Positions 2,801 through 55,741 of a stretch of 64,000 nucleotides of DNA are shown piece by piece. The notes below the pieces were generated by a model. The model worked only from the letters and a program-made list of their open reading frames with translations. It had not been told where the DNA came from and did no database searches. Every line of letters begins with the position of its first letter. The first letter of the stretch is position 1. Both the position numbers and the translations under genes were made by a program. Origin of the DNA: Tribonema minus (lineage: Eukaryota; Sar; Xanthophyceae; Tribonematales; Tribonemataceae); the NCBI GenBank assembly GCA_017506865.1, contig JAFCMP010000536.1, positions 372,001 through 436,000 of the forward strand. Reading direction: 5' to 3'.

Positions 2801-5800
2801 GTGAGAGCAGTTGAAGTTTTAAATTCGGCTGAAAGCAGGACTTTGGGGGCACGAGGCTGGTTGTCTGACGCGCTGCGGCATGTGGCAGCAAGGCGCGGTG
2901 CTGCAGCGGGTGTGCAAGGTCGCCAGAGCAGACTGTAGCACGGTGCTGTAGCATGGGTTGGGCTTTGGGCTGCTGTGCGGCAGTCGCAAGCACTCCTGTT
3001 TCTGTAATAGTGTCTGTTATGTCATGATCTTCTGACGTCTGCAACTTCGTGAAATGCGACCAGGACTGGTCTTTGTTGTCATGTGCACAGATGGTGGGTA
3101 GCGTGGGTGTCTGGGACGCTCTCAACTGCAGTCAGCCGACAGTCATTGTCTCAATTCCTGATGGCACACACAGTGGCATATGGCTGAGACACAGAGTATC
3201 CCTAACCTCACCCGAATCTCATGACTGGCATGTCCTACTGCCGTACTGACAGCCAGCAGCTGGTTAAGACTCGCATTTTGTATCAGCTGGCATGCATTGC
3301 AAGTGTTGCCACTTGCGCATGTTCGCTGCACATTCCGGTCAGCTCGAGTGCCAGTGCTAGTGGGACTAGAGCATGTCGGCTGAATACTGTGGTGCAGCAA
3401 TGCCCCAGTAAAGACATCAGTCAATCATCCGGTGCGCCAGGCGACAGTTGACCCAACAGCGTGCACCATGCGGCAGACTGTGTTGTACTTGTTGGGTCTG
3501 TTGCGACTGCTCACCTACAAGTTAAACTTCAAGTCCGCCAGCAGTGGCTAGTTGCAAGGCAGGCATCTCTGTCACAACGCCTAGATACCACTGCAGGCAC
3601 AGTTTTCTCCAGCTGCACCAACAGCAGCACTGCGACCGGTTACCGCCCTTCTCTGGTATAGGGTTAACGTTGGGGTTACAATTAGAGTCATCTGCAGCGC
3701 GCACACTGCCAAGCCAGCGCCAAACGCAACTCTTCATGCGCCTTGCGGCACGTCATCATGATGACATCGTATCCTCCCATCTGCGCCGCTGGCGCCTTTC
3801 CTGAGAGTATGGCTGATCTAGCACTTCAGTAGCAAAGCGATACTTCAGAAGTATCGCTGGCCGTGTCAGCGCTCTGAACTCTCTCCCCCGCGCCCCCCAT
3901 CAGTGCTTCGACGTCCTGGACAGTCTGCGGCGCCTCGAGTCCTTCCTGCTGGACTCGCTGGCAGTGCTCAGCCTCCGCGACACCGCGCTGGCGGCGCTGG
4001 TAGGCATCTGCCGCGCGTCCGGCGCGCTCGAATTCCTGCTGGACCTCGTGCGCGTGCTCATGGACCTGGAGGCACGCGCCGCAGCAGCAGCGCTCGACGG
4101 CGCGGTGCACTCCGCCGCCGCCGCCGGCGGCAGCACCGCCGCCGCCGCCGGCGGCAGCAGCGCCGCCGCGGCAGCAGCGGCGGCTGCTGCGGGCAGCGCG
4201 CCCCGCCCGGTGCTGCCGCCGCCAGCGGGCGCCGCTGCCGCAGCTGACGGCGCTGGTGCTGACGGTGCGGCCGCGACAGCACCGGCAGCGGCTGCAGCGG
4301 CGCCAGTCATCAGCGCCGTTGCCGCGGACGGCCTGGCGGCGCTCGTGGCGGAGGTGGGGGCGGCGGCGGAGGCGGTGCGGCGGCGCGCGGCGCAGCGCGC
4401 GGCGGACAGCGTCGTCGACGACGCGCAGTTTGCGGCAGCGCTCAGCTCGCCGGCGGTGGAGATCGGCGAGGACGGGCGCGTCGCCACGAGCACGGACGGG
4501 CGCGGTAGTTACGCGCTGCTGCGGCAGTCGCTGAGCGGCGCGGCGGCGTGGGCGTGGGAGGTGACGCTGGAGCGGGAGACGCCGGATGATGAGACGACGT
4601 GCCTGGGCGTCGCGCTGCACCCTGTGGTTGACGGCAACTACGAGAGCAGCGACCAGATGTGGATGGTACGTGCCTGCAGTTGAAGTTGGCTGAAGTCCAG
4701 TACTTGAAGTTGAAGTCGGCTGCTACAGTACTCAAATTTGAAGTGTGTTGTGATGAGTGTTGAATTTGTGCGGACAGTAAGGCAACGTGCCTGGGCGTCG
4801 CGCTTCAACGTGTGGTCAACGGCAACTACGAGAGCAGCGACCAGATGTGGATGGTGCGTACATACTTGAAGTTCAAGTTCGGCTGTTGCTACTTGTACTT
4901 GTAGTTCAAGTCCGTTGTGATGATCGTTAAACTCATGCGGACGGTGAGACGACGTGCCTCGGCGTCGCGCTGCACCCCGTCGTCGACGGCAACTACAAGA
5001 GCAGCGATGTGGATGGTGTGTATGCACTTGAAGTGGAAGTTTTTCAGTACTTGAAGTTGAGCTCTGTTGTGACAAGTGACGAGACGACGTGCCTCGGCGT
5101 CGCGCTGCACCCCATCATCGACGGCAACTATGAGAGCAGCGACCAGATGTGGATGGTGTGTACGTACTAGAAGTTGAAGTTTACAGTACTTGAAGTTGAG
5201 GTATGTTGTGAGAAGTGTTGAAATTGGTTGGACAACGTGACGACGTGCCTCGGCGTCGCGCTGCACCCCGTGGTCGACGGCAACTACGAGAGCAGCGACC
5301 AGATGTGGATAGTGCGTACGCCGAATATAGGTTGACTGGCACAGCAATTCAAATTGTAGTCCGTTGTGACGAGTGTTAATTTTGGGCGGACGGTGAGACG
5401 ACGTGCCACGCATCTTTCCCACTCACAACCTATGTACATCACGTGTAACCCCAACATCAACGCCCGCTACCTACCTACCTACCCGCAGGTGCGATGCTAC
5501 AGCGGCGAGACGTACTGCCGCGGCGGGCGCCAGGGCGTGACGGTCGGCAAGGTGCACGCGCGCGACGTCGTGCGCTTCACGCTGGACGGCGCCGCGCGCA
5601 CGCTGAGCGTTGCCATCAACGGCGTGTGCCAGGGCGTCGCGTTTCAGAACGTGCCGCACGGCGTGCACCCCGCAGTGAGCTTCTACGGCGCGCAGAAGAG
5701 CGTGCGCCTGCTGCAGCTGCGGCGGCTCGATGGCGGCGGCGGCGGCGGCGATGACGGTGAGCGCTGCTGGTGTGTGGCATTGCTTGGCGCTCTGTGTGTG

Positions 5801-8800
5801 CCCAACGCTGCTGTATTTTGAGCTAGGCGAAGGCGCGCATGATCAGCAAGATTAGCTGGCCTGCGGATGGATGTGCTGCAGCTGTGGCGGCTTGACGATG
5901 GTGAGCGCTGCTGCTGTGTGGCATTGCTCAGCGCTCTGTGTTGGATTCTGCTCTATTTGAGTCTCCAAACATACGCCGAAGCATGTATGTTGATATGTGC
6001 GCTGTGCCGAATGCCGCTCACTCGGAAGTACGCTTGTCCAGCAAGAGTCGTGGCGGCTCACTGGACGCCATCAATCAACAATTTTGTGTTGTGTTTTTCC
6101 CAACAATCTTGTCTTGTACTGAAAACTGCACCTACACAAGGCTGGTGGCATCTGTTTGACATGGTACCTGTCGCAATCATACCTGCTTACACAGTAGCAG
6201 TACCATCAGCTTCACGCACACCTCCCTCCGATACAAACTTCTCCTCTGTGCGCATCGCACAGTCGAGATGGCACTCTTTTTCCACCATATGCTCTGTACC
6301 AACGCTCATTCGCGCCAGCCATAGGCCTGGCAACCAAATCATCACCAATCCGTGACGTCACCCTCGCAGCGCCAGCAGCAGCCGACGCCAGCGCGCGCGC
6401 GCGCAGCCGCTCCCACGCCAGCAGCAGCGCGCAGCGCGGCAGCGGCGCCGCCGCCGTCCTCCCCCACACGCAGCAGCCGTCGCGCTGCCTGCTGCGCGCC
6501 CTGGCGGCGCTCGCGCGCAGCCACCTGCCGGACACCAGCGAGACCGATGCCGCTGCTGGCGGCGCCGCTGCCGCTGCCGCCGCGGCAGATGAGGCCTGGT
6601 CGACTGCCGCGCCGCCGTGCGACGGCGTGCCGGCCGTCGTCCACTTGCACGTGTCCGCGGCGGTCATGCGCTGCGCGGCGCGCGGCCGCCGCTCCATCGC
6701 CGCCAGCAGCAGGCGCGGCAGCGGCGGCGGCGGCAGCGGCAGCGAGTGGGGGAGCGGCAGCGAGCGCCCCGCCGCCGTGAGCACTGCCGCCTCTGAGGGC
6801 TGGGCGAACGGCGGCAGCGACGCGCGGCAGCGGACTCCGCCTGGCGGCGGCGGCGACAGCAATGCGGCCGCTGCGGCGGCGTCGGCAGCAGCGGCGCCGC
6901 CGCTCGAGGAGGCGTACGTGCTGCAGCCCACGGAGCCCGTGCTGCGCAAGCTGCACGCGCTGCTGGCGTCCTCGCTCGCTTCCGCCACCGCCGCCGCCGC
7001 TGCCGGCAGCAGCTGCAACTGCGAGGAGCCCGCGCTGAGCCTCATGTCAGTGCTCCGCGCCAACCTCGCGCGCCTCGTGGCGGCGCACCTGGCGCCGGCG
7101 GAGGTGGGCCTCGATGCGCGCGGCGGCGGCGTGCTGCGCGACCTGCGGCGCCTGCTGCGCGGCGTCATTCTCGGAGCAGGAAGCGCGGACGCAGCGGCGG
7201 CGGCGGCGGCGGCAGCGGCAGCGGCGCCGAGCGACGCGCTGCGCGTCGCGGCGGCGGACGCCTTCGCGAGCGGCCTGCCGCTGCTGCTGCCGTCGTGCGC
7301 GCACCGCCTGCGGCTGCTGCTGTCGCTGCACCGGCGGCGGCAGCAGCAGCAGCAGCAGCGCGGCGGCGCAGAGGGCGGCGCCGGCGGCGCGGCGGCGCTG
7401 CGCGCGCTGCTGCGCCACGTCGTGCGCCACTTTGCGCGCGCGGAGACGGTCCTGCAGCTGCTGTTGCTGTTTGAGACGGAGCCGCGGGAGCGCGACGCTA
7501 TTGCGGAGCTGCTGGAGCTGATGCTCAGCGCTCTGTCGAGCGCGCCGCCTGCGCGCGCAGCGGGCGGGGGCGAGGAGTGGGAGGAGGGCGCGTTCCCCGG
7601 GGAAGGGACGTTCTCGGAGCAGGGACAGTATTTGGGCGACGCGGTGCTGGCGGAGCCGGAGGTCACGGCGCTGGTGTTCCACATGATGTCGACACTGCAG
7701 CAACATCTCGGTGAGCTGGGGTGCAGGCTGGATTGTCTGCTAGCATAACGGTCATCGTGCATAGGCTCAGTTGTTTATAACACTACAGAATGCCAGAAAA
7801 GAATTTGGAAGAGTGATGATTTTGAGTTCCGCATTACACTTCCAAGAAAGTTCTCGTCTCAACTGCGTGGGCAGCAAACAATGCAGCAGGTCCCGACGCA
7901 TACTATGCACTAAAAAATGTACACAATCGCGCGCAATCCACTGCCATACTTGCCCCTTGACGCGCCTGCTCCCTCCTGCGCCTGCCAGTGTATCTCGTCC
8001 TGGATGATCCTGAGGGCGCGCCGTACGAGCTCCTCCTCTGCCAGTACGCGCAGACCCTGCTGCGCGCCGCGTGCCGCGAGCTCAGCTCTGACTGCGCCGC
8101 AGCTGCCGCTGCTGCCGGCGGCGCGTGCGCCACCGCCGCCGCCGCCTCCGCGACCCCCATCGTCGCTGCGCTGCTGCCGCCGCTGCTGCACGGGCTCTGC
8201 CTCGCGTCGGGCCGCGCGCGCATCGCGGAGGGCGTGCTGCCCGCTGTGGCAGCGCTCAGCCGCGCTCTCGGCGCGCGAATGCGCGGCGGCAGCGGCGGCG
8301 GCGGCGGTGCTGACAATGGCGCTTGCAGCGGTGTCTCTGACAATGACGCTTGCTGTGCCGGCGGCAGCGGCTGCGACGCTGACAGTAGCGCTTGCGACGG
8401 CGGCGGCGGCGGCGGCGGGTGCGCAGCAGCGGCGGCGGCGGCGGAGGCGGCGCTGCGCCGCACGGAGCTGGTGGGCGGGCCCGCTGCGCTGGTGCTGGAG
8501 CCGCAGGGGTGGCGCACGGTGTCGGCAACGTTTGAGGCGGAGGAGGACACGGACAACTACTATGAGGCAAGGAGGAGTTTTTGACATATCAACTTCCCTT
8601 GAACTTCAGCAAGTGGTCGAAGCTGAGGGATTGTGCCGAACTGCGACTGACTGCACACACCGTGTCTTTGAAGCTGTTGAGGTACCAGCGTCACAGGGCG
8701 TGTTGTGACATCCTCCAGCACGCCCGTGACAGTCAACATGTGCATTTCCGCCAAAGGTAGGTGTATGAAAGCGGTTGCGGCGCCTGTGACCGCCGCCGTT

Positions 8801-11800: not shown

Positions 11801-12744
11801 CAGCGCTGGTGAAAAACTGGCCGCAGACATGGTACGGGGCGACGCGGTGCCTCGGGATGGTTTCCAAGACACAAGCCGAAGCAGCAGCAGGCAGCGCCGC
11901 AGGCATTAGCGGCGCGGGGCCTGGCCTGGCTGCGCAGGCAGCGGTTGCAGTGAACCACCAGGGAACGGCCGAAGCACCAGCTGCCAGATTGAAGCGAACC
12001 CGCAATTGTGGTTCGCTTCAAGCTGGCAGCTGGTGCTTAGGCTGTTTCTCGAGGCCTACAGTAATCGGTAGCGGCGACGCCTGCTACCCGCAGCTAACAC
12101 CCGTACTAGGCCAAAATAGTGCGAAAGCTGTCAGAAAGCCGCTGGTGCAGTCAACTGCCTTTACTAGGGCAGAGCCCCAAGTGAAGGCAGGATTGCGGTT
12201 CGCTTCAATCTGGCAGCTGGTGCTTCGGCCGTTCCCCGGTGGTTCACTGCAGCCGCTGCCTCCGCAGCCAGGCCAGGCCCCGCGCCGCTAACGCCTGCGG
12301 CGCTACCTGCTGCTGCTTCGGCTTGTGTCTTGGAGACCATCCCGAGGCACCGCGTCGCCCCGTACCATGCCGCAAATTGAGCTGCCGCCGCTGGTGCCGG
12401 CGCTGCTGCAGCGCTGGTCAACTGAGGCCGCATGGCTCTTGGCGCCGCGGTGCCCCTGTCCCCGTCGCATGTGGCCGCGCTTGCTGCGCACCTGCTGCGC
12501 ACCGCCATCCTGAGCTGCAGGCTCAAACACCTCGCCACCGCCGTACTGGCTATATGACGCCGCCGCCGCAGCAGCGGCGGCGGTGGCGTCGGCGCCTGCA
12601 AGCATGGGGTCCTCGATGGTGCCCCAGCCAAGGCTACTGATGGGCACCAAGTCACCGTTTGGGGCACGTACCCACTGCACGGCGAAGGCTGCGTCCTGCG
12701 GCATCATCTGAGGGTGAATTTGTGCTACGACTACTGCTGCTGCC

Positions 12745-12775
<31 letters not shown>

Positions 12776-20382: not shown

Positions 20383-20435
<53 letters not shown>

Positions 20436-31676: not shown

Positions 31677-31725
<49 letters not shown>

Positions 31726-36612: not shown

Positions 36613-36646
<34 letters not shown>

Positions 36647-41033: not shown

Positions 41034-41067
<34 letters not shown>

Positions 41068-42406: not shown

Positions 42407-42437
<31 letters not shown>

Positions 42438-51400: not shown

Positions 51401-54400
51401 TCATATGCCCTTGCGGTTCCAGGTGCGCTGGCTAGGGCTAGGGTGAGGGCGGAGGTTGCAGCTGTAGGGGTAGTAGGCATCGCCATGATGACGGTTATCT
51501 TTGCTCTTGCGGGGCTGGTCGCGCTGCTGTCCGGGTGGGGAGGTATTGGCGGATGCTGCTCTCTTCAGTTTCAGAGGGTTAGATTTAGGATTAGGTTAGG
51601 ATTAGGGTTAGGGTTAGTGCTGAGGTTAGGGTCAGGCTCTGTCGGTGACGCTCGGGTGCTGAAGCTGCTGCTGGTGCGAAGCTGGGAATAGATGCTCCGT
51701 TTGGCCGAGGCCAAGTGCGCCAACCGCCAGCAGGTGCCGCAAATGATGAAACGCGCAGGCGTAATTGCACCTACATACCTCACGCCACATGCGCTCTCAA
51801 ATGCGCGCGCGCATGCCGCATCACACTTGAACCTGTCGAGGAGGGCAATGCTCAGTTGCTCAAGCAAATTCATGAAAACTGTGTTCCAGCGAGTTCACTC
51901 TGTGAACTCGGAGTGAGTTCAGCAAACTCACGCGCGCTGCGCCACCAGGTGAACTTTTTTGGGGAGGACAATGTGAACGATCCAGCGAGTTCATTCAGTG
52001 AACTGGGAGTGAATGCAGCGAACTCGCGCGCGCCACATCACGACCTGAACTCTGTTGGGGAGGACCGTGTGAAAGCTGTTTCAAGTGAAATTTCAAATTT
52101 CATCAACGATCTGTTCCATCATTTTCATCCAGCGAACCTCCCAACGCGCGCGCTGCGTCACCAGGTGAACTTTGTCGGCGAGGACGGCGTGGACACAGGC
52201 GGCGTGAAGCCGTTTCAAGCGAATTCATGAATAATCTGTTCCCAATACTTCACTCAGCGAAACTCTCAACGCGTGCGCCGCGTCACCAGGTGAACTTTGT
52301 CGGCGAGGACAGCGTGGACGCGCACGGCGTGAAGTCGTTTCAAGTGAATTCATGAATAATCTGTTCCCAGTTTTTCATACAGCTCTACGATCTCTTGATT
52401 CGTGTTTTTCATTTCACTCAGCGAACCTCCCAACGCGCGCGCCGCGTCACCAGGTGAACTTTGTCGGCGAGGACGGCGTGGACGCGGGCGGCGTCTTCCG
52501 CGACGCCGTCACGCGCGTCACCGACGACCTCTTCTCCCCGCGCTTCGCGCTCTTTGCGCCGTGCCCTAACGCGCGCCACGCGACGGGACTCAACGGCGAA
52601 AAATACGTGCCTAGTGCGTGTCAGCAGCACAGCGGCGGCGGCGGCAGCGGCGGCGGCGGCGGCGGCGGCAGCAGTGCGCTGGCGCTGCAGCAGCTGGCGT
52701 TCGTGGGGCGCCTCATGGGCATCAGCCTGCGCACGCGGCTGGCGCTGCCGTTCGAGCTGCCATCGCTGGTGTGGAAGCGGCTCATCGGTGCGTGCAGTAC
52801 GTAGTACATCATGCACTTTCAAACCGACACATGACATGCATACTTCAAGCTTAGATACCATTCATCTGGGCTGTTCCCTGAGCGAGAATCAATAAAAAAA
52901 TACTTTGAAGTACATATGCAGTCGGGTGTGTGCAACAGCCTTGGCCGTCAGCAAGCGCACTGCATCGTTGCTGGAGGCGGTGTGGGTGTTGACGTGTGCA
53001 AACGGCAGCGCTCTTGTGCTAAGGCATGTTTGTGCAGGCATGTGACTGGCAGTACTTTATTCGCTCTATGGCTCTTTGCCTCGTAATGCTCTGTTCACTC
53101 GCTTGCCGACAGAGACAATGACTGTCCAGACCCCCCTACCAGCCTGGCACTGACACTCGCCCTTGAGCCCAACAACAGGCCTTCCTGCCCCCCACTCCTC
53201 TAGAAACTCCATCCTTCTCACCTGTTTCACCCCCCTTATGCACGCTGCCGCAGGGCTAGATGCGAATCTGGACGACTTGCGCGCCATTGACAACATCACG
53301 TGCCAGTTCCTGGAGGCCATCCGCACGTGCGAGCACGAGGGCATCCACAGCGACGCCGCGTTCGACGCGCAGTACGGCGACAAGCTCGTCTTCACGTACA
53401 CAGGCAGCGATGGTGAGTCACCGTTTTCACGCAGGCAGCGATGGTGTGTCAACGTCAATCTCAAACTTGAATGTGCAAGCCTTGTATACCTGAGCCGCGT
53501 TCGACGCGCAGTACGTCGACAAGCTTGTTTTCACGTACACAGGCAGCGATGGTGCGTCAACTTCAAACTTAAACTTGAAGAATGTTGAAGCCCATGTACC
53601 TGAGCCGTGTTCGACGCGCAGTACGGCGACAAGCTCGTCTTCACGTACACCGGCTGAGATGATGCGTCAACTTCAACTCGAACCTGGATATCAAAATCTA
53701 TGTACCTGAGCATGAGTGCTGGCAGCATTGGTATGTGCACAACCAGCGGCGAGCATCAGATAGTGTTTCGCTGCACATATAAGCGCAATCACTTGCACAG
53801 CAATACAAGGCGCATCGCACAGGAGGGTGACATCATTGACACACAGGCTGTACTCAGTGCGAAAACTTCACGCTTTGACAACTGGAACGCCACTTTTCAA
53901 GAGCTGCAATGCGCTGTGATGCTTCTCTCACAATAATGATTTGTTGCACGCTTTGATCCTGCATATCGTATGATGTGTTTGCCGGCTGCTGCAGGCGTCG
54001 AACGCGAGTTGATACCAGGCGGGCGCGAGCGGACAGTTACATTCCGTAACCGCCACGCGTTCTGCGACCTCGTCGAGTCGCGGCGCCTGCACGAGTTTGA
54101 CGAGCAGGTGAGGCGCTCATGGACAACGCTGATGTTTGACGCCAAGCTTGCTACGTGCCACTGGCAAATAGGACTATGTTAAAGCTAGGCATGCAACCTT
54201 GAAGTTTCGCAGTTGGTCCCTGCAGTACTTCAGCGTATGGCGCAGGATCTTATATAGCTTGTGGCGCAAGCGCAACAGGTGCGGCTGCAGCTGCTGTCAA
54301 AACACTGCGTTTGCGCGCTGGCTCGAATTTCTCACAGCGCATGCCTCGCGTCTGCTTTCCTCTGTCACCTGCACTTTTTTAGGCATGATGTGGGCATTGG

Positions 54401-55741
54401 AAAGTGCATGCATCTGCAGAAGGTTCATCACTCTGCGTGAAGCCTTCGCAACACGAGTGTTAATGCAATATTGCAGCAATCCTCTTCATTAGTACCGGCG
54501 TGCCCCCTCCCCCCGCCTCCCGCCTCAGATCGCCACAGTGCCACACTTGACACGGGAAGCACGATAATGCCGCCGCAGCGCATTCACCCACTCTCCACCG
54601 ACCGTGTCACAGCAGCGCTCTTCCCCCATCTGTTCCGCGCACACCTCTCTCACCACCTCAGATCGCCGCGATGGCTCGCGGCCTGGGGGACATTGTCCCC
54701 CTGTCAGCCCTGCGCCTGTTCACCTGGGACCAGCTGGAGGTGGCGGTTGCGGGTGACCCCGCCTTCGACCTCGATCTGTGGCGCGCGCACACGGAGTACA
54801 AGGGGTTTGACGCGGATGGCGAGACCGTTGCGCTCTTCTGGCGCGTTCTCGGCAGCCTCACGCCGCAGGAGCAGAGCGGTTTTGTGCGCTTCGCGTGGGG
54901 GCGCAGCCGCCTGCCCCCGCTCGCGCACTGGACCACCAACATGAAGGTACATGCGTGTTTGAATGCCTTGCCAGAAGTCGTGTTGCATGTTGGTGGCACA
55001 GGCGTAAGTATGAAGGTACTGTTGGAATGACTCACCAGGACTCGTGTTCACCGTTGGCACAGGTGCATGTCTGCTTGCTTGTCATTGAAGAACTAAACTT
55101 GCGCAAGTTACATGTGATGTGCCGTATCAGCTGTCACAGGAGCTGCTAGACACACTGCGGCACTGTCATGCTCGCAAACGAAGGGGTTCCAAGCGCATGT
55201 ATTCAATCACTAATCGCCCTTGTGTGCTGTACCTTACTGGAGCATGCGAGTGATTGCCAGCAGGAGTTTACAATAGGGCACTCTGACAGCTGCCTCGACT
55301 GCAACGCAAAGTGCAGCAGCACGCTTGATGTTATGAAGTAGCACACCTTTTTCACTGGTACATCGATAGCAAAACGGCTGCTCCATCATGATTCAAGCAC
55401 TACGCAGTGGCTTGGTTGTCCAGGCATGGTGAGACATTCCCCTTCGGCCCCTTCATGTTTGAAGCCAGCAGCTCGCCTCTCGCGGCTTTCCTGCAGTGCG
55501 TTCGCTCCGGCCTTCTGTGCAGAGCTGCACGTGCTTGCTGATGCAGCCAATGCTTACCATTCTGCCCTCTCTTGTACATTGCACTTGTTGGCAGCTGAGC
55601 AACCGCGGCAACGCCGCCCTGCCCGTGAGCCACACCTGCTTCTTCAGCGTCGAGCTCCCTGACTACAAGACGGAAGACGAGATGCGGCGCGGGCTTCTGA
55701 CCGCCATACACTTTGGCGCGTGCGGCATACTGAACGCGTAG
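1478..55741 (+). CDS. Giant HECT-type E3 ubiquitin ligase, HECTD4-like, 49 exons, about 7,043 aa
   Basis: Transfers ubiquitin from an E2, through a thioester on its own Cys, to substrate lysines; probably cytosolic, as no signal peptide or membrane segment is seen. The 49 exons listed below join with matching phase at every junction and total 21,132 nt, a multiple of three ending in TAG; this closure is the main support for the model. Domain order by residue: F5/8C-like region (about 295-430, tentative), SPRY1 (626-781), SPRY2 (1404-1569), SPRY3 (1717-1865), SPRY4 (3074-3200), ES-HP module (about 4683-4790), SPRY5 (4961-5140), Vps62/DUF946-like (5217-5410), paired ES-HP modules (about 5821-6060) and HECT (about 6690-7043, Cys7010). 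Three introns (5, 30, 42) use GC donors. Human HECTD4 is about 4,000 aa; much of the extra length is Ala/Gly/Ser tract. The start ATG is the first in the open frame, but 5' exons may be missed. The HECT assignment is firm; HECTD4 orthology is inferred from domain order. Confidence 0.85.
3904..4665 (+). CDS. HECT gene exon 2: helical region and first half of SPRY1
   Basis: Residues 442-695. The acceptor is CCCCCCATCAG. A Leu-rich helical stretch (LRRLESFLLDSLAVLSL) and a long Ala/Gly tract precede SPRY1, whose N-terminal half includes AWAWEVTLE and TCLGVALHPVVDGNYESS. The donor is GGATG|GTACGT, phase 0. The last 75 bases are echoed four times in the following intron. Confidence 0.88.
4781..5410. 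repeat. Donor-side echo array in intron 2
   Basis: Four further copies of the last 75 bases of exon 2 plus its 5' splice site lie near 4781-4857, 4945-5017, 5079-5160 and 5237-5317, with a stub at 5392-5406. The unit is about 150 bp and includes intron bases with ACTTGAAGTT motifs. Most copies keep a GTGCGT/GTGTGT donor, and most keep the exon reading frame. Confidence 0.93.
5489..5756 (+). CDS. HECT gene exon 3: second half of SPRY1
   Basis: Residues 696-785. It carries CYSGETYCRGGRQG, then DVVRFTLDGAARTLSVAING and VHPAVSFYG, the usual C-terminal strands of SPRY. It ends in phase 1 at GACG|GTGAGC after a short Gly/Asp run. Confidence 0.9.
5871..5965. repeat. Donor-side echo in intron 3
   Basis: One copy of the end of exon 3 (GTGCTGCAGCTGTGGCGGCT, then GACGATG|GTGAGCGCTGCTG) continues into a copy of the first 60 or so intron bases. 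The copy lacks the GGC run present in the exon. Confidence 0.85.
6370..7710 (+). CDS. HECT gene exon 4
   Basis: Residues about 785-1232, with no named domain. It begins after CCCTCGCAG. Alpha-helical stretches (AVVHLHVSAAVMRCAARG, EPVLRKLHALLASSLAS, HVVRHFARAETVLQLLLLF, ERDAIAELLELMLSAL) suggest an armadillo-like scaffold interrupted by Ala and Gly tracts. Entry and exit are both phase 1. Confidence 0.85.
7989..8566 (+). CDS. HECT gene exon 5: start of SPRY2
   Basis: Residues about 1232-1424. It continues the helical scaffold (APYELLLCQYAQTLLRAACREL), then begins SPRY2 with WRTVSATFEAEEDTDNYYE. The donor is a GC site, TATGAG|GCAAGG; no GT donor keeps the frame into exon 6. Confidence 0.82.
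8696..9094. repeat. Acceptor-side echo array in intron 5
   Basis: Copies of the 3' intron end plus exon 6 start lie at about 8749-8860 and 8869-8985, before the real junction at 9094/9095. A further copy of the exon 6 segment encoding TSSNTCATVNVCV lies at 8696-8750. The unit is about 110-145 bp. The shared core is GACAATGGCGCGCTGTACAC. Confidence 0.9.
9095..9364 (+). CDS. HECT gene exon 6: middle of SPRY2
   Basis: Residues 1425-1514, phase 0 at both ends. It encodes VSDDGALYTAV, AAWEFLLDADS and SLWMRRAYNGVLYCRGRQLP, the central SPRY strands with the Trp-Arg-Arg-Ala-Tyr-Asn-Gly turn. The donor is TCCAAG|GTGAGT. Confidence 0.9.
9420..9640. repeat. Donor-side echo array in intron 6
   Basis: Two copies of the exon 6 end (CTGTACTGC, then GGGCGCCAGCTGCCGAG, then CACCATGTCCA) lie at about 9428-9484 and 9576-9635. 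The donor has decayed to CTAAG and GTCAAG. A run of about 21 G lies between them at 9490-9510. Confidence 0.9.
9725..10229. repeat. Acceptor-side echo array in intron 6
   Basis: Units of about 100 bp contain TTCATGAATACAAGCCC, then GTGCTGGTTCC, then GCAGATCCATCCGGGCGAC. Echoes of the exon 7 start follow CGCAG at about 9846, 9970 and 10090; the genuine junction is 10229/10230. Confidence 0.9.
10230..10394 (+). CDS. HECT gene exon 7: end of SPRY2
   Basis: Residues 1515-1569. It encodes IHPGDVVRCELDMDEGTLRF, then AVNGE and VYPCAGSYRAGVKIRLLK, the classic SPRY C-terminus. It is phase 0 at both ends; the donor is TTGAAG|GTGAGG. Confidence 0.92.
10460..10925. repeat. Donor-side echo array in intron 7
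   Basis: Three copies of the exon 7 end plus donor lie at about 10465-10560, 10626-10745 and 10798-10890. Each repeats TACCCCTGCGCTGGCAGT, then GGGCG and TGAAGATACGGCTGTTGAAG, followed by about 90 intron bases (ACATTGCAGG, GATGTTAGTGAATG). The first two keep GTGAGT; the third has GTCGGG. Confidence 0.93.
11111..11488 (+). pseudogene. Gln-rich fragment in intron 7, possibly a captured gene piece
   Basis: A 125-residue open frame is rich in Gln/Ala/His (WEQLAQQQAQQVQLAQLQAQ, then CAG-encoded Gln runs). A second frame (11460-11770) continues with MMPQDAAFAVQWVR and GEVFEPAAQD. Both overlap the left arm of the inverted repeat. The frames do not join and no splice pattern includes them, so a transposed or retrocopied fragment is more likely than a working gene. 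Family not recognised. Confidence 0.4.
11360..12010 (+). repeat. Left arm of a 0.65-kb inverted repeat in intron 7
   Basis: Pairs with 12190-12840. The arm runs from a CAG/CACCAC microsatellite through the MMPQDAAFAVQW coding fragment to a GAAGCGAACC hairpin at 11966-12047. Identity is high across the arm except for an inner flipped piece and small indels. Confidence 0.9.
12190..12840 (-). repeat. Right arm of the inverted repeat in intron 7
   Basis: This is the reverse complement of the left arm. Its minus-strand frame 12303-12707 carries the better-preserved version of the MMPQDAAFAVQW fragment (135 codons). The spacer between the arms is about 180 bp. Confidence 0.9.
12365..12435. repeat. 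Micro-inversion inside the right arm, flanked by CCATG/CATGG
   Basis: Left arm 11757-11832 and right arm 12365-12435 both read CCATG-CCGCAAATTGAGC...CATGG on the + strand, although the arms around them are in opposite orientation. The inner 61-66 bp has therefore flipped in one arm, between inverted 5-bp CCATG/CATGG ends. Confidence 0.9.
13203..13643 (+). CDS. HECT gene exon 8
   Basis: Residues 1570-1716, phase 0 at both ends. VEVMGGTLAGSTAS and AALRGSLLSVDKKALELRR-like sequence precede a long Gly/Ser/Ala linker. It lies between SPRY2 and SPRY3. The donor is GTGAAG|GTGTGT. Confidence 0.8.
13908..13988 (+). CDS. HECT gene exon 9: start of SPRY3
   Basis: Residues 1717-1743 (ADVEWATARASPAL, then HCVEFELA). 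The acceptor is CGCGTGCAG and the donor CTGGCG|GTGAGC, phase 0. A short exon, supported mainly by frame closure and the SPRY-like strand. Confidence 0.7.
14466..15179 (+). CDS. HECT gene exon 10: SPRY3 and linker
   Basis: Residues 1744-1981. LLAFGVTRR, WWSDGTLHIDG and DVVAARLDAARGTLAFSVNG identify the rest of SPRY3. The phase requires the second of two nearby AGs (CGCACCAG|CGG), 8 bases past the first. Near 14870-14910 the exon includes the ACTTGAAGTT repeat that is otherwise intronic, encoding LEVEVPLEVGVKLEVE. The donor is GCTCAG|GTGACT. Confidence 0.78.
15390..15435. repeat. Weak donor-side echo in intron 10
   Basis: GGAGATGGGCCTGCAGCA, ending CTCAG|GTGCAC, resembles the last 65 bases of exon 10 (GGAGATGGACCTGCAGCA...CTCAG|GTGACT). 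Intronic ACTTGCCCT is also repeated at 15182 and 15252. Confidence 0.65.
15571..15606 (-). repeat. Telomere-type CCCTAA tract just before exon 11
   Basis: Four to five CCCTAA-like units lie within 50 bases upstream of the exon 11 acceptor. Confidence 0.85.
15624..15850 (+). CDS. HECT gene exon 11
   Basis: Residues 1982-2057. DDNEVALGPWLRAPVMAGGL and ELEEHAWTGLRRRRWSFAWD look like a conserved Trp-rich segment; no family is named. It ends in phase 2 at TTGGG|GTAAGT. Confidence 0.82.
16046..17497 (+). CDS. HECT gene exon 12
   Basis: Residues about 2057-2541. Beta-rich LCLTFHGATELRDFDFFEAE is followed by Ala/Pro linkers, helices (LAFLERIAAGGADYERAAAW, faintly UBA-like; LARAWGKVRQLRAHLRATKQ) and CFDKYVAEVGARARFLLEL. 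A (GGC/AGC)n tract fills 16960-17065. Phase 2 exit at AGCAA|GTGAGT. Confidence 0.85.
17939..18332 (+). CDS. HECT gene exon 13
   Basis: Residues about 2541-2672. MARELSGLPDAPPLDAQQAR precedes Ala tracts and RLQRRITAPPVTMPSAG. The acceptor is CGCGGCAG. Phase 0 exit at ATGCAG|GTGCGC. Confidence 0.8.
18590..18862. repeat. Direct repeat in intron 13
   Basis: TGTTGCGTAGGTATTGCTGA (followed by CCAT) occurs at about 18593 and again at about 18826, 233 bases apart. Confidence 0.8.
19044..19706 (+). CDS. HECT gene exon 14
   Basis: Residues 2673-2893. ATALYVLSGPAAPPAALRAA, AASRTFGLRALSALLDALIG, AAGLEGVRGDAVSAAFEGLY and LAHLVMTCWALDHG form an alpha-helical repeat-like region broken by Gly/Ser tracts. 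Phase 0 at both ends; the donor is GCGCAG|GTGAGT. Confidence 0.85.
20384..20456. repeat. CTG microsatellite before exon 15
   Basis: About 20 CTG/CTC-like triplets end 30 bases before the exon 15 acceptor; they may act as the pyrimidine tract. Confidence 0.9.
20489..20602 (+). CDS. HECT gene exon 15
   Basis: Residues 2894-2931. WQPWSLDAVREALLRGALLH then RHISELPPGTVPPQ. Phase 0 at both ends; acceptor CCGGCGCAG, donor CCTCAG|GTACTG. Confidence 0.78.
20617..20719 (+). repeat. TTAGGG tract just inside intron 15
   Basis: About ten TTAGGG-like units with variants (TCAGGG, TTTGGG) begin 14 bases after the donor. Confidence 0.92.
21317..21463 (+). CDS. HECT gene exon 16
   Basis: Residues 2932-2980. 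VLEDTGLAPNDGLVWEPGAV and LLTAYGALVEAFLAQ. Phase 0 at both ends; acceptor AATCAG, donor GCGCAG|GTGAGC. Confidence 0.75.
21620..22541. repeat. Acceptor-side echo array in intron 16
   Basis: Copies of the exon 17 start (CCAGTCGGAGGCGCGGCTGC) lie at about 21623, 21866, 22036, 22208 and 22370 before the real junction at 22541/22542, spaced about 165-170 bp. The 22036 copy extends about 55 bases into the exon sequence. The intronic part of the unit also repeats, including ATACTT-AAGTAT palindromes. Confidence 0.92.
22542..22685 (+). CDS. HECT gene exon 17: charged coiled coil
   Basis: Residues 2981-3028. SEARLRAEERDAEARRAAAE, then RVRDLRARGVPLLDDDPSMK. The charged helix leads into SPRY4. Phase 0 at both ends; the donor is AAAGAG|GTGAGT. 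Confidence 0.88.
22733..23045. repeat. Donor-side echo array in intron 17
   Basis: Copies of the exon 17 end (GTGCCGCTGCTCGACGACGA, then CCATGAAGGCCAAAGAG) lie at about 22740-22812, 22872-22942 and, degraded, 22990-23042. Donors have drifted to GCGC, GTTAAT and GTGATT. The intronic part carries GAATGAAT runs. Confidence 0.92.
23353..23726 (+). CDS. HECT gene exon 18: SPRY4, first two thirds
   Basis: Residues about 3029-3153. VILSELCTVAGVATVDSVAC precedes a textbook SPRY: STYFEVTVLHPGEKTSIGVG, PGWVEHSYGYHGDDGQKFG and WAEGDVIGCGVDTERRAIW. This is the strongest SPRY match in the gene. The acceptor follows a C12 tract. Phase 2 exit at ATATG|GTAAAC. Confidence 0.94.
23727..24310 (-). repeat. Donor echoes mixed with degenerate CCCTAA tract in intron 18
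   Basis: The exon 18 end (GTCGACACGGAGCGCCGCG, then CATATGGTAAA) recurs at about 23829-23862, 24010-24045 and, decayed, 24116-24140. The copies are separated by AGCCCTAACCCTAGGAC-type sequence. Confidence 0.9.
24830..25505. repeat. Acceptor-side echo array in intron 18
   Basis: The exon 19 start (GCAGGTACACGCGCAACGGC, then ACGCTGCTGGGCGACGCCTT) recurs at about 24836, 25019, 25138 and 25322 before the real junction at 25505/25506. Three copies keep the AG; the 25019 copy has AT. Between them, ACATACCCTGACCG and CGTGCGACGCGAC also repeat. Confidence 0.95.
25506..25698 (+). CDS. HECT gene exon 19: SPRY4, last third
   Basis: Residues about 3153-3217. YTRNGTLLGDAFANV, LCPVVGFHSNGERVRINFGL then TPFVYAG complete SPRY4. 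Phase 0 exit at GCCAAG|GTATGT. Confidence 0.93.
25750..26018. repeat. Donor-side echoes of exon 19 in intron 19
   Basis: Short copies (GGAGGCGCGCGCGCATC, then AAGGTACGTAGG) lie at about 25755-25786 and 25829-25866. A longer, diverged copy of about 110 bases of exon 19 (GCGCATCAGCTTTGGCCT through CACGCCAAGCTTATG) lies at 25903-26018. Confidence 0.88.
26110..26736 (+). CDS. HECT gene exon 20
   Basis: Residues 3218-3426. An acidic Ser/Asp/Glu tract (SSDSDSESDSARRR) precedes helices (VAQELGVPAEALQPTLALLR; MDLQRELFDVLLAELELGAA). Phase 0 at both ends; the donor is GTCAAG|GTGAGT. Confidence 0.87.
27053..27231 (+). CDS. HECT gene exon 21
   Basis: Residues 3427-3486. A Ser/Pro/Gly linker, then VEPHVHRLLLLLCALRRRRP. 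Acceptor TCTCGCACAG; phase 2 exit at CGCAG|GTATGT. Confidence 0.8.
27481..27687 (+). CDS. HECT gene exon 22
   Basis: Residues about 3486-3555. SLLSLLRCGSPRVQRCTVLI then LEAVLPPLDP reads as an ARM/HEAT-like helical repeat. The acceptor follows a C18 tract. Phase 2 exit at CGCAG|GTGAAC. Confidence 0.83.
27855..28215. repeat. Three-unit tandem array in intron 22
   Basis: Units of about 125 bp start near 27860, 27985 and 28118. They share GGATTGGAG, GCATGCACGC-like and CGCCGGATGA blocks, then AACCAACACACTCGCACCTA and CGAGCGCTGACT. No exon sequence was identified in this array. Confidence 0.85.
28245..28564 (+). CDS. HECT gene exon 23
   Basis: Residues about 3555-3662. RHDGGGLVGILFAAVRSAHA, LQLADQCAALLRALHAAAAW and REHVARRLLLPLHAAAGALA are amphipathic helices. 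Acceptor GCGTGCGCAG; phase 1 exit at GCGG|GTGAGC. Confidence 0.85.
29122..29993 (+). CDS. HECT gene exon 24
   Basis: Residues about 3662-3952. AALSIIAAPAGALYPGAAVL, then NTRTHARGTVVRCCG and GHVTVVYAG suggest a small beta barrel like those in other giant E3 ligases (inference). Helices (VTLQLVALARRLLERG; LLLLALAALLSVAATRPEAV) and a basic tail (PKPRREKRRKTRVRE) follow. Phase 0 exit at GCGAG|GTACAG. Confidence 0.86.
30050..30260. repeat. Donor-side echo array in intron 24
   Basis: The exon 24 end with donor is copied at about 30056-30092 (GCGTCGCAAGACGCGTGTGC, then ACAGTCAGTGCTCACGC) and 30147-30205 (GAAGCCGCGGGGG, then ATGCGCGTGCGTA and GAGGTACAGTC). The intronic GTACTGT/TGTACAG repeat is part of each unit. 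Confidence 0.92.
30545..30739 (+). CDS. HECT gene exon 25
   Basis: Residues 3953-4017. VCGSSLPVAQSIPPRELRLS then VDIDTMMVGFDDAITEEDVL, an acidic linker. Phase 0 at both ends; the donor is GATGAG|GTGGGC. Confidence 0.78.
31220..31780 (+). CDS. HECT gene exon 26
   Basis: Residues 4018-4204. An acidic start (EEDSTSHDNLADSSE), a Pro-rich stretch, then RALTHVLDISAAARAARAAA and LCAGKRIVALGPGADAFLTA. The last 60 codons form a Gly/Ala tract; a neighbouring frame there (RLLRGVANGAHPLLLLL) looks more protein-like, so an indel or extra intron near 31,600-31,640 is possible. Phase 0 exit at GCGCAG|GTATGT. Confidence 0.72.
32100..32319. repeat. Tandem array before exon 27 in intron 26
   Basis: Two units of about 110-128 bp, near 32108-32215 and 32216-32319, share ACTTCAAC blocks, CTCCAGCTTCAACGCT-like, CGTGTTGCGAAT-like and CACTTCAACACCAATGCCTC-like sequence. 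The second unit ends at the acceptor. Confidence 0.8.
32320..32431 (+). CDS. HECT gene exon 27
   Basis: Residues about 4205-4242. QAAMTPAEETVCAMVGADAM then ALARQHRSATDRRRTPT. Acceptor CAACCGCAG; phase 1 exit at GACAG|GTGCTT. Fits the frames on both sides. Confidence 0.72.
32475..32590. repeat. Short tandem repeats in intron 27
   Basis: CTCCTGGGTGTGTCGTGCT recurs at 32471 and 32515 (one change), and TACATCAACAAGCCCTAGTT recurs at about 32537 and 32562. Confidence 0.85.
33155..33283 (+). CDS. HECT gene exon 28
   Basis: Residues about 4242-4285. Acidic AAGESEGTPDDDGGADELSD, then VVAMAQASLLREARLEG. Acceptor TATACAG; phase 1 exit at GGAGG|GTAAGA. Confidence 0.77.
33663..34422 (+). CDS. HECT gene exon 29
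   Basis: Residues about 4285-4538. Gly/Ser-rich start, then CIMALAADSGVLLEADLQPL, EEYDWLTPGRLVTVCGGGEA, DMHLTVDVLDDETGVCLPRQ and LRLMRLLAAQDMAAGFDVR. A GGC/AGC tract fills 34150-34245. Phase 2 exit at GTCAG|GTGCGT. Confidence 0.83.
35258..35594 (+). CDS. HECT gene exon 30
   Basis: Residues about 4538-4650. Pro-rich PFPSPLTPPCPFGGLTGGAY, then VALLETLLHKVLVPPQSLPP. The acceptor follows C-rich 35213-35248. A GC donor (CAGGAG|GCAAGT) is the only one that keeps the frame. Confidence 0.8.
36113..36140 (+). repeat. TTAGGG tract in intron 30
   Basis: Four TTAGGG units in a row. Confidence 0.9.
36336..36755 (+). CDS. HECT gene exon 31: first ES-HP module
   Basis: Residues 4651-4790. VFEHESLHPLPAPL, PPGAIGCLVKVDARSATRDG, then AQLRFYTSA and IMCGWSHDRIAKARSKGLEF match the beta-sandwich module with ES-HP, PGA and FD-R signatures seen in several giant E3 ligases (pattern recalled, not searched). 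A (GGC)n insertion splits it at 36600-36680. The donor is TTTAAG|GTGGGG. Confidence 0.85.
37065..37495 (+). CDS. HECT gene exon 32
   Basis: Residues about 4791-4934. VEDADSLIAPLQAAPVAGVV, then a Ser/Thr run encoded by TCAACTTCAAC repeats (STSTSSTSTLK). CTLFRSFVVHNIKELYFRVD and LECDECEED-like acidic sequence follow. Phase 2 exit at AGCAG|GTGCGT. Confidence 0.83.
38181..39027 (+). CDS. HECT gene exon 33: SPRY5
   Basis: Residues about 4934-5216. GRWLFEVKLEPPFDATALGS, AAIGWYRDGSA, then WAAGDVITAFFDADAGAARF and AINGDW and TRMVANFGQHALRHATP: a whole SPRY in one exon, split by Gly/Ser insertions. It ends ENPANWGFRFVVEPLFGIQY. Donor TATCAG|GTACTT. Confidence 0.9.
39581..39886 (+). CDS. HECT gene exon 34: Vps62/DUF946-like, first repeat
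   Basis: Residues 5217-5318. SIWRPKPPEGYYSIGDIACR and later YTVWRPMPRRGQ fit the iWRP-P-GY-GD repeat of the Vps62/DUF946 family. This module in a HECT ligase is an inference to test. The acceptor follows a C-rich tract (39550-39580). Donor GGTCAG|GTGCGG, phase 0. Confidence 0.85.
39900..40400. repeat. Minisatellite in intron 34, about 92-bp unit, 5-6 copies
   Basis: Units begin TTCTGGCATACACTC near 39910, 39997, 40089, 40184 and 40277. They share GCTGCACTGGTGGTTCTTG, GTGTACT-GACCGCCATTCGC and TTTCATTCTGCAAGTG. They contain no exon sequence. Confidence 0.93.
40607..40671 (+). CDS. HECT gene exon 35: Vps62-like, linker
   Basis: Residues about 5319-5340: VALGDLACRKKANKGNMAGA. VALGDLAC repeats the GD-AC motif of exon 34 (SIGDIAC). 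Acceptor GTTACAG; phase 2 exit at ATCAG|GTGAGC. Confidence 0.85.
40697..40745 (+). repeat. TTAGGG tract in intron 35
   Basis: TTAGGG-like units begin about 25 bases after the donor. Confidence 0.88.
41036..41067 (+). repeat. Poly-C run of about 32
   Basis: The longest of the C runs, 17 bases before the exon 36 acceptor. Exact length may be affected by sequencing. Confidence 0.9.
41085..41320 (+). CDS. HECT gene exon 36: Vps62-like, end
   Basis: Residues about 5340-5419. CVADWAVDRCPILRRIWRES, then ALWAVQNGLGTFFASQTG, matching the W-V-N-GTFFA ending typical of Vps62-like repeats. The acceptor follows a C32 run at 41036-41067. Phase 1 exit at TGACG|GTAGGC. Confidence 0.86.
42138..43835 (+). 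CDS. HECT gene exon 37: helical scaffold and paired ES-HP modules
   Basis: Residues about 5419-5985, the largest exon. A basic start (RERRRSGGSSRRSRRKKRSP) could be a nuclear signal. Helices follow (WATWLLAFLLRDARLQPLAL; DVFAVLARYLCLRGTLRRRR). The second ES-HP module begins VESPHPIGRAAQRGAVCLPG, then ALDPRC and FSFAGDSVRYEYLG. The third begins RHESVHPLP and reaches VRFDERCCLPDG. Phase 1 exit at AGATG|GTGAGT. Confidence 0.9.
43836..44255 (+). repeat. TTAGGG-rich start of intron 37 with echoes of the exon 37 end
   Basis: TTAGGG blocks at 43848-43960, 44000-44070 and 44225-44250. Between them are degraded copies of the donor region (CTTCCCGATGGACAGATGGT, then GAGTGCCGTAGGGCTAGGG at about 43960-44000; GCTGCCCGTTGGAGAGTGCC at about 44070). 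A further echo of AGCTGGAGGTGCAGTTTGAC-type exon sequence lies at 44325-44370. Confidence 0.85.
44555..45188 (+). CDS. HECT gene exon 38: end of third ES-HP module
   Basis: Residues about 5985-6196. CELVIQSAG, then FAEPLKIPGDTLRFWLQPGG (the ipGD strand) completes the module across Ala/Gly tracts. LLCIETLVVDAGEPGPEPAV follows. Phase 2 exit at GATCAG|GTAAGC. Confidence 0.86.
45631..45986 (+). CDS. HECT gene exon 39
   Basis: Residues about 6196-6315. Ser-rich start, then ADPLRIRTFSFSQLPAANPQ and RMDHAGALLLRDSEASAHSQ. The donor ACAA|GTGAGG is fixed by the phase of exon 40; the open frame itself runs on another 280 bases. Confidence 0.75.
46577..46960 (+). CDS. HECT gene exon 40
   Basis: Residues about 6315-6443. 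DYGASVVIGGESDSDTESVA then a Gly/Ser/Asp low-complexity linker with a repeated DATGGSG. Phase 1 exit at GCAGCG|GTGAGT. Confidence 0.72.
47009..47128 (+). repeat. Dispersed repeat, copy 1
   Basis: About 115 bases match 63507-63619 (GACTCGTGGCC, then CTGCAGCAGCGGCGACCACG, ATTGGTGGAAGGCA, ACTTGTCACCTAG-like). It lies in intron 40. Identity is roughly 80-85 percent by eye. Confidence 0.88.
47453..47712 (+). CDS. HECT gene exon 41
   Basis: Residues about 6443-6529. SPKRSDIETAAGDNDCADAW, GLGLTRTQRLQLALAGAGVT, then PLEVARAMMALWTPALDRSL. Acceptor after a C-rich tract; phase 0 exit at GCGGAG|GTATGT. Confidence 0.85.
48245..48367 (+). CDS. HECT gene exon 42
   Basis: Residues 6530-6570. VGKAAAKEGEGAVAAALAAA, then LNPWCARISPQDAAFKHAQ. 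The donor is GC (GCACAG|GCACGT); the nearest GT would break the frame into exon 43. Confidence 0.78.
48800..49494. repeat. Acceptor-side echo array in intron 42
   Basis: Exon 43's start with its acceptor is copied at about 48822 (GCCGCCGCAGCAGGCCGGAG, then TGCACCT), 49160 and 49318, with a partial unit near 49020; the real junction is 49494/49495. The intronic part (GACTCATGACTGACACC, GATGGAAGACAACATCA, GCTCAGTTTCTCTATGCGC) repeats with it, at about 155-170 bp. Confidence 0.92.
49495..49623 (+). CDS. HECT gene exon 43
   Basis: Residues 6571-6613. LAGVHLASLCLRTALLLRLN, then CLLPVLDLSSQDPDNLGYQ, a helical segment before the HECT domain. Phase 0 at both ends; donor TACCAG|GTGCGC. Confidence 0.9.
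49810..49965. repeat. Weak donor-side echoes in intron 43
   Basis: AACCTCAGGTATCAGGCGC at 49817 and GTGCAGAGCAATGGACAGCG at 49928 resemble the exon 43 end and first intron bases (AACCTCGGGTACCAG|GTGCGCAAAGCGATGGGCAG). Confidence 0.6.
50590..50835. repeat. Acceptor-side echo in intron 43
   Basis: An 80-base copy of the exon 44 start with its C tract and CGCAG lies at 50592-50700 (GTCCGCCAGGCCAACTACCT then CATCCTGCCGCACGT). It differs from the real copy (50836 on) by one inserted T and two substitutions. The intronic ACCTCCGCCC... context and CACAT-GC-CAT-C blocks also resemble each other. Confidence 0.92.
50836..51090 (+). CDS. HECT gene exon 44
   Basis: Residues 6614-6698. VRQANYLILPHVKSRVLEAA, LGVTLDNLRAAASLARGETD, then SQCLFAQAFRQLAHRDAQLL and VWDGDRVFQ. 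This leads straight into the HECT N-lobe. Phase 0 at both ends; donor TTCCAG|GTGCGC. Confidence 0.92.
51160..51445. repeat. Donor-side echo array in intron 44
   Basis: The exon 44 end plus donor recurs at 51170-51236 (GAGACGCGCTGCTGCTGAGA, then GTGTGGGACGGCGACCGAGT, GTTCCAG|GTGCGC). Shorter copies (GCGGTTCCAGGTGCGCTGGC) lie at 51314 and 51413. TAGGGCTAGGG sequence follows each. Confidence 0.92.
51565..51645 (+). repeat. TTAGGG tract in intron 44
   Basis: TTAGGATTAGGG-type units, perfect in the centre (51600-51617). Confidence 0.88.
51870..52453. repeat. Acceptor-side echo array in intron 44
   Basis: Exon 45's start (CACCAGGTGAACTTTGTCGG, then CGAGGACGGCGTGGACGC) is copied after about 51948, 52045 (AG lost), 52163 and 52289; the real acceptor ends at 52453. 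Units are about 100-165 bp and include TTCA-TCAGCGAAC and CCAACGCGCGCGC blocks. Confidence 0.95.
52454..52787 (+). CDS. HECT gene exon 45: HECT N-lobe
   Basis: Residues 6699-6810. VNFVGEDGVDAGGVFRDAVT, DDLFSPRFALFAPCPNARHA, KYVPSA, then LAFVGRLMGISLRTRLALPF and ELPSLVWKRLIG. These are the diagnostic GE-G-D-GG-R and FvGrlmG motifs of HECT domains. A Gly/Ser tract is inserted after KYVPSA. Phase 1 exit at ATCG|GTGCGT. Confidence 0.97.
53254..53412 (+). CDS. HECT gene exon 46: HECT N-lobe, E2-binding region
   Basis: Residues about 6810-6863. LDANLDDLRAIDNITCQFLE, then YGDKLVFTYTGSDG. Acceptor GCTGCCGCAG; phase 1 exit at GATG|GTGAGT. Confidence 0.93.
53425..53690. repeat. Donor-side echo array in intron 46
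   Basis: The exon 46 end (CGCGTTCGACGCGCAGTAC, then GACAAGCTCGTCTTCACGTA, then CAGGCAGCGATG|GTGAGT) is copied at about 53496-53556 and 53608-53668, with a short copy at 53432-53450. The 53496 copy has GTGCGT and the short copy GTGTGT. TCAACTTCAAACTTGAA-type sequence follows each. Confidence 0.94.
53995..54107 (+). CDS. HECT gene exon 47
   Basis: Residues about 6863-6900. VERELIPGGRERTVTFRNRH, then FCDLVESRRLHEFDEQ: the strand-turn-helix of HECT domains (eL-pgG-~~VT--N~~~y~~lv). Phase 0 exit at GAGCAG|GTGAGG. Confidence 0.94.
54508..54545. repeat. Acceptor-side echo in intron 47
   Basis: CGCCTCAGATCGCCACAGTG resembles the exon 48 junction (CACCTCAG|ATCGCCGCGATG), about 135 bases upstream of it. 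Confidence 0.65.
54662..54946 (+). CDS. HECT gene exon 48: HECT hinge and C-lobe start
   Basis: Residues 6901-6995. ARGLGDIVPLSALRLFTWDQ, then FDLDLWRAHTEYKGFDADGE, VALFWRVLGSLTPQEQSGFV and RFAWGRSRLPPL. The TEYKGFDADGE, F-FWRV and RF-WGRSRLP motifs are canonical. Donor ATGAAG|GTACAT. Confidence 0.97.
54941..55070. repeat. Donor-side duplication in intron 48
   Basis: ATGAAGGTAC plus about 55 intron bases recurs at 55011-55070 (GTCGTGTT/CTCGTGTT, GTTGG, TGGCACAGG shared). Confidence 0.75.
55595..55741 (+). CDS. HECT gene exon 49: catalytic C-lobe and stop
   Basis: Residues 6996-7043 and stop. LPVSHTCFFSVELPDYKTED holds the active-site Cys (residue 7010, codon 55637-55639) in the invariant HTCF context, 33 residues before the C-terminus. 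The tail AIHFGACGILNA keeps a hydrophobic residue four from the end, as active HECT ligases do. The enzyme therefore looks catalytically competent. Confidence 0.97.
   Translation: MSNRGNAALPVSHTCFFSVELPDYKTEDEMRRGLLTAIHFGACGILNA

Follow-up and report, generated by a model that had tools for sequence, protein, structure and literature searches.

The introns of a HECT/SPRY gene in Tribonema minus, a yellow-green alga (Xanthophyceae), carry extra copies of the edges of their neighboring exons, here called echoes, in which an exon end or exon start is repeated together with the adjacent splice site. At a probability of about 0.72, we consider these echoes to be what remains of local tandem duplications that occur often in the T. 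minus genome and are filtered by selection, with tandem duplication as the presumed molecular event and selection as the presumed filter. Under this reading, a segment of ~80–200 bp would be duplicated in place; a duplication inside a coding exon would be removed by selection, and one lying wholly within an intron or across a single exon-intron border would be tolerated. The true junction (the first donor or the last acceptor) would still work, so that the extra copy would be intronic and spliced out and would lengthen the intron, and repeated rounds would build arrays from one or both intron ends. The true exon would stay under purifying selection, and the copies would drift, losing reading frame and splice sites, with about half keeping a plausible decoy site.

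The gene occupies most of the window, by which we mean the whole 64 000-nucleotide stretch of DNA analyzed here, G000:C533:372001-436000. A purpose-built HMM gene finder followed by hand curation yielded 48 exons and 47 introns; the gene finder itself called several echoes exons. SPRY matches fell in exons 3, 7, and 18 and a HECT match in exon 47 (54662-54946) among the eight exons scanned, and a protein search returned eight matches at 34–46% identity, none of them a near relative. Near the 3' end our intron numbers run one below those of a first-pass annotation of the same DNA (its introns 42, 43, 44, and 46 are our 41, 42, 43, and 45). Introns 29, 31, and 39 were left out of the counts made after the exon-edge 40-mer scan described below, except that the GT/AG retention count (22 donor and 20 acceptor echoes) omitted only intron 39 and edges without a tabulated exon phase (e.g. 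the intron 37 donor). The gene and its arrays are as follows.

1478..55719, + strand: HECT/SPRY gene, 48 exons, 3' end partial; HMM gene finder plus hand curation, edges of introns 29, 31, and 39 uncertain
4583..5410, + strand: intron 2 donor array, four copies of the end of exon 2 with its GT
5722..5941, + strand: intron 3 donor echo, a single weak copy
8768..9150, + strand: intron 5 acceptor array, two echoes
9308..9637, + strand: intron 6 donor array, two echoes, both without GT
9812..10252, + strand: intron 6 acceptor array, three echoes
10334..10943, + strand: intron 7 donor array, three echoes
21558..22597, + strand: intron 16 acceptor array, four echoes
22612..23056, + strand: intron 17 donor array, three echoes
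23692..24303, + strand: intron 18 donor array, three echoes
24620..25547, + strand: intron 18 acceptor array, four clear echoes, with a 69% relative on C24
25594..26018, + strand: intron 19 donor array, three echoes
29944..30254, + strand: intron 24 donor array, two echoes
43830..44121, + strand: intron 37 edge repeat, only 5–6 exon bases in common with the donor
48765..49533, + strand: intron 41 (formerly 42) acceptor array, three echoes
50604..50903, + strand: intron 42 (formerly 43) acceptor echo, one close copy; weak copy at 50529-50566
51020..51491, + strand: intron 43 (formerly 44) donor array, one complete echo and repeats of intron sequence
51885..52494, + strand: intron 43 (formerly 44) acceptor array, four echoes
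53355..53711, + strand: intron 45 (formerly 46) donor array, three echoes

The window holds other features as well. Putative protein-kinase-like exons lie downstream of the HECT gene at 58446-60029 and include HRDLKASN, which we take to be a kinase-type motif. Intron 7 contains inverted arms of ~650 bp (87% alike) around ~185 bp at 11360-12836, with a foldback or MITE-like look, and TTAGGG-like (telomere-type) interstitial tracts occur in introns at 20617-20684, 40695-40740, 43913-43956, and 51575-51636.

Matches to exon-edge 40-mers within the adjoining intron reached a score of at least 30 at 11/47 donor and 9/47 acceptor edges (of the 11 donor edges, that of intron 39 is low-complexity sequence and that of intron 40 is marginal), against 0.51% (donor) and 0.46% (acceptor) of pairs when the same 40-mers were compared with other introns. 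The first-pass annotation had listed fifteen echo-bearing introns, and copies were recovered in all of them (2, 3, 5, 6, 7, 16–19, 24, 37, 41, 42, 43, and 45 in our numbering), those in introns 3 and 37 being weak. Its three additional weak cases (10, 47, and 48; here 10, 46, and 47) found no support, with own-intron scores of 12–19, and weak single acceptor copies appeared in introns 12 and 13, which it had not listed.

Because the match signal drops with distance into the exon, the echo units straddle one junction. At depths of 0, 20, 40, 60, 80, and 100 nt, donor signal was found at 11/47, 10/47, 7/46, 3/44, 2/43, and 0/39 edges, and acceptor signal at 9/47, 6/47, 1/46, 1/44, 1/43, and 1/38, with 0–2 of 114–141 in controls at matching depths. 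Exon similarity fades by about 60–100 nt, so whole exons are not duplicated. The claim that each unit spans a single junction is therefore correct, and much of this is expected from chance duplications of ~100 bp in short introns combined with selection against exonic ones. The 37 arrays found in 57 introns consist of direct copies on one strand at short regular spacing, the arrangement of tandem duplication (median unit 116 nt); those that straddle a junction have units of ~80–205 nt including ~20–105 exon bases. In several two-copy cases (introns 3 and 42) a spacer of unmatched sequence separates the copies, which are not head to tail. Exon sequence makes up about one third of the unit in the 11 straddling acceptor arrays, and their intron share never falls below ~46 nt; that of donor units goes down to ~23 nt. 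The larger intron share on the acceptor side would reflect a demand of splicing, since the last acceptor must carry its own branch point.

In their coding content the echoes resemble decaying DNA. In those window arrays that hold two or more echoes, changes confined to one echo were spread over the codon positions as 26:34:36, whereas those private to the true exon stood at 1:1:7. Private changes affected 96/1688 exon-derived echo sites (5.7%) and 60/824 intron-derived ones (7.3%), compared with 9/626 real-exon columns (1.4%) and 13/326 master-intron columns (4.0%). Since the private changes fall evenly over codon positions and the two echo rates are alike, the echoes are non-coding and decay nearly like intron DNA; they behave as decaying duplicates, not as alternative exons. 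Tandem (mutually exclusive) exon duplication involves whole exons under coding constraint. The echoes share with it the repetition of exon sequence in the adjoining intron, and differ in that a single edge is copied and constraint is missing (the 26:34:36 distribution), and we rejected it as an explanation on both counts.

The splice sites follow the same course. Aligned echoes retained GT in 17/22 donor and AG in 17/20 acceptor cases, about as predicted from 11% divergence; in a wider set of 61 echoes at 32 junctions, where gaps put some copies out of register, GT was present in 23/37 and AG in 18/24. Many echoes do keep usable sites, as the first-pass annotation had claimed, with 16/37 donor and 16/24 acceptor echoes scoring at or above the 10th percentile of real sites. 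Together with the long exon matches of many copies, these scores would suit a functional role, in which the copies would be retained for use as alternative exon ends or as splice sites, whether alternative or decoy. We regard such a role as very unlikely, given the even spread of echo-private changes over codon positions, splice dinucleotides no more frequent than neutrality predicts, and reading frames that a 5-base gap interrupts in intron 2 and a TGA in the echoes of intron 45. A supply of splice sites, which had been proposed as a possible role of the arrays, thus holds as a by-product and not as a kept function.

Annotated proteins bear on the same question. Joined at its true junctions, the HSP70 gene of C190 equals an annotated T. 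minus protein at 100% over 556 residues; introns 1, 3, 4, and 5 (4/6) of its model carry echoes, and the protein is free of echo sequence, which again argues against functional echoes. The joined protein aligns with a solved HSP70 chain with three gaps of one residue each, including one where exons 4 and 5 meet. For a light-harvesting complex (LHC) protein of C1, all 253 residues after the exon start match an annotated T. minus record, and its paralog on C79 is 95–96% identical; the annotated protein fits splicing into the true acceptor, next to which an echo array lies. We infer that the copies are likewise spliced out in the HECT gene. The two protein matches also identify the genome as that of T. 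minus.

Divergence within the echoes is uneven. Both parts of a unit had been said to stay similar; over 61 echoes this is true of the exon-derived 40 nt (10.9% differ) and fails for the intron-derived 50 nt (23.8%, with many gaps). The exon part was the less diverged in 24/26 and 13/15 groups, and the ratio of intron- to exon-derived divergence was 1.9–2.6, exceeding the ceilings of 2 for master-echo and 1 for echo-echo comparisons under the simplest neutral model. As Jukes-Cantor (JC) distances, the ratio was 2.4 overall and, in a second alignment set, 2.58 between master and echo and 1.90 between echoes, the last from pairs whose exon side extended into intron-derived columns. These ratios describe copies picked by exon similarity, and unrelated intron parts align at only 36% mismatch under the same scoring. 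Such ascertainment probably accounts for part of the excess. Special preservation of the exon-derived part was accordingly dropped as evidence for conversion, the polarized count differing only as 5.7% versus 7.3%. Repeated copying from the exon, or conversion by it, could still have contributed to the similarity; one echo on contig C112 matches its exon at 58/58 sites, and its adjoining intron part matches poorly.

The divergence also speaks to the assembly. Arrays of this kind are hard to assemble and were judged here from the assembly alone, so an assembler might have inflated them; with echoes differing from one another by ~12–14% in their exon-derived parts and the pattern present at many loci, we give this explanation almost no weight.

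The pattern recurs well beyond the HECT gene. Two HSP70 loci (L039 and L041), selected by Pfam HSP70 match and blind to arrays, contain 11 arrays in their 13 introns, nine of them straddling and two interior; a third (L040) also shows repeats at exon edges, and its poorly resolved exons kept it out of the array counts. Two further HSP70 copies, on C522, have alignable introns with no repeats within the parts examined, so arrays are not universal. Contig C112 gave an independent 200 kb sample, in which echoes occurred at 9/75 donor and 5/74 acceptor edges of predicted exons, against 1/300 and 0/296 in non-adjacent controls. This edge set was limited to exons of at least 80 nt that scored 22 or more, and to edges with the expected GT or AG and 150 nt of flanking sequence. 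It still holds many false exons, because reversed C112 sequence yields 54 exons at score 20, compared with 64 and 79 on the real strands; we think that these dilute the echo signal, as the non-adjacent control stays near zero. The C112 sample also contains highly similar multi-copy tandem arrays away from strongly predicted exons (L028 5824-6641; L029 363-938 and 5355-6141).

The LHC paralogs indicate when one array arose. An acceptor array is present in the C1 copy and absent from the C79 copy, and the C1 echo is closer to its own exon region (89.7% identity over 116 nt) than to that of the paralog (84.1% over 88 nt). The array is therefore younger than the gene duplication. The LHC family is large in this assembly, with 92 matches to Chloroa_b-bind exons (L038, L035-L037, and many more loci); RuBisCO gave two short matches, each with an internal stop. 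Identical match scores at paired places in contigs C179/C90, C70/C489, and C355/C551 suggest that these pairs are duplicated or allelic.

Assembly searches with two arrays, by a method that skips common words, found the intron 2 array only at its own place, and the intron 18 array at its own place, in its neighbor, and in one 69% relative on C24. For these two arrays the copies are confined to their own locus, and a dispersed element (an introner or transposon-borne intron) was rejected, with no similar copies over unrelated genes. The C24 relative (L044 1501-1745; G000:C24:1104402-1104646) is itself arrayed and has an exon-like piece inside; array material may thus have moved between loci. 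This confinement, the recurrence in other genes, and the LHC paralog difference support the earlier suggestion of a local duplication process that grows introns.

Whether exon borders themselves attract duplication can be asked of array placement. Under a null model with medians of 116 nt for the unit and 428 nt for the pre-growth intron, and with duplication tolerated in introns or across one border, 15.2 of 37 arrays should straddle a border and 26 did (p ~1e-4); a repeat lying inside an exon next to intron 26 and three transposon-like matches in intron 7 were left out of the counts. Tandem clusters likewise straddled a predicted exon edge in 11/27 cases in C112 (3.4 expected) and 16/25 in the window (5.6 expected), and 16 of the 27 in C112 lay away from predicted exons. 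Such an excess would follow if the border (through a composition step, nucleosome edge, R-loop, or splicing) promoted local copying, so that arrays mark a border-directed process. Exon-anchored copies are, however, recognizable for longer: were straddlers visible twice as long, 20.3 would be expected (p 0.03), and at three times as long 23.4 (p 0.21).

Masking the exons removes this visibility bias (intron 7 was set to a length of 1108 with its transposon-like middle masked). In the window plus HSP70 set, 14/32 arrays then lay 8 nt or less from an edge (11.0 expected, p 0.16), 21/32 within 20 nt (12.4 expected, p 0.001), and 24/32 within 40 nt (14.8 expected, p 0.0006). The excess at the two wider distances favors a border process, as does C112, with its imperfect exon set, at 40 nt (8/25, 3.3 expected, p 0.007). 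It is non-significant at 8 nt, in the HSP70 genes alone (4/8 within 20 nt, 2.5 expected, p 0.19), and at 20 nt in C112 (4/25, 2.9 expected, p 0.31), and the window was selected because of the pattern. With the masked excess weak in C112, a border hotspot is possible, suggested rather than demonstrated, and on balance unlikely. If it were true, introns would grow from their ends inward, steadily receiving ready-made splice sites.

Alternatively, the introns could have been born when an exonic AGGT segment was duplicated in tandem, with the arrays as what is left of that event. AG|GT does stand at 17/57 joined exon edges, compared with 0.16% AGGT in the exon background, a pattern also expected of any intron at a proto-splice site. 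Under this origin, the first bases of an intron should be similar to the start of the exon that follows it, and the last bases to the end of the exon before it; at score 24 we found 0/57 and 0/57, with mean scores equal to control. Old introns could have lost the trace of such a birth, and we consider this origin highly improbable for the arrays.

Zhuo et al. in 2007 reportedly described introns from tandem arrays in human genes, and Gao and Lynch in 2009 are said to have treated internal gene duplication; their common ground with our case would be a link between intron structure and tandem arrays or internal duplications. Three papers treat the gain of introns by tandem duplication (PMC2891723, PMC4974935, PMC3488318). 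In potato RdRp, a new intron arose when an upstream intron-exon structure was duplicated in tandem (PMC4974935). The echoes resemble that case in that a local tandem duplication spans an intron-exon border and the copies carry over the splice signals of their parent; unlike that one event, which made a new intron and added exon sequence, they are many copies in existing introns and leave the protein unchanged. With the Rogers model and intron-gain duplications, as the cited papers present them, they share intragenic tandem duplication yielding extra splice sites; that model involves exonic duplication and a unit-size intron, and the sequence relation it predicts is missing here (PMC2891723, PMC4974935). 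Among the titles and abstracts listed by our literature search, none concerned junction-straddling copies stacked inside introns. The data leave room for a system apart from known tandem duplication but do not require one; they fit mostly ordinary local duplication plus selection, unusual in extent.

We favor local tandem duplication filtered by selection because echoes in their own introns far exceed control and recur at independent loci, because polarized changes, neutral-like GT/AG loss, the LHC paralog difference, and the HSP70 protein match all point that way, and because acceptor units keep at least ~46 nt of intron and clusters away from exons exist. The excess of straddlers, the spacers between copies, the excess intron-part divergence, and the 58/58 C112 echo count against it.

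For gene prediction the echoes are a warning, as the gene finder used here mistook several of them for exons. In T. minus, this would be a little-described route for introns to grow and to gather spare splice sites, and one in which intron growth can be watched, each array being a duplication series anchored on an exon of known evolution. Intron lengthening without transposons becomes open to test here, as does the way the spliceosome handles several near-copies of a true site ~100 bases away.
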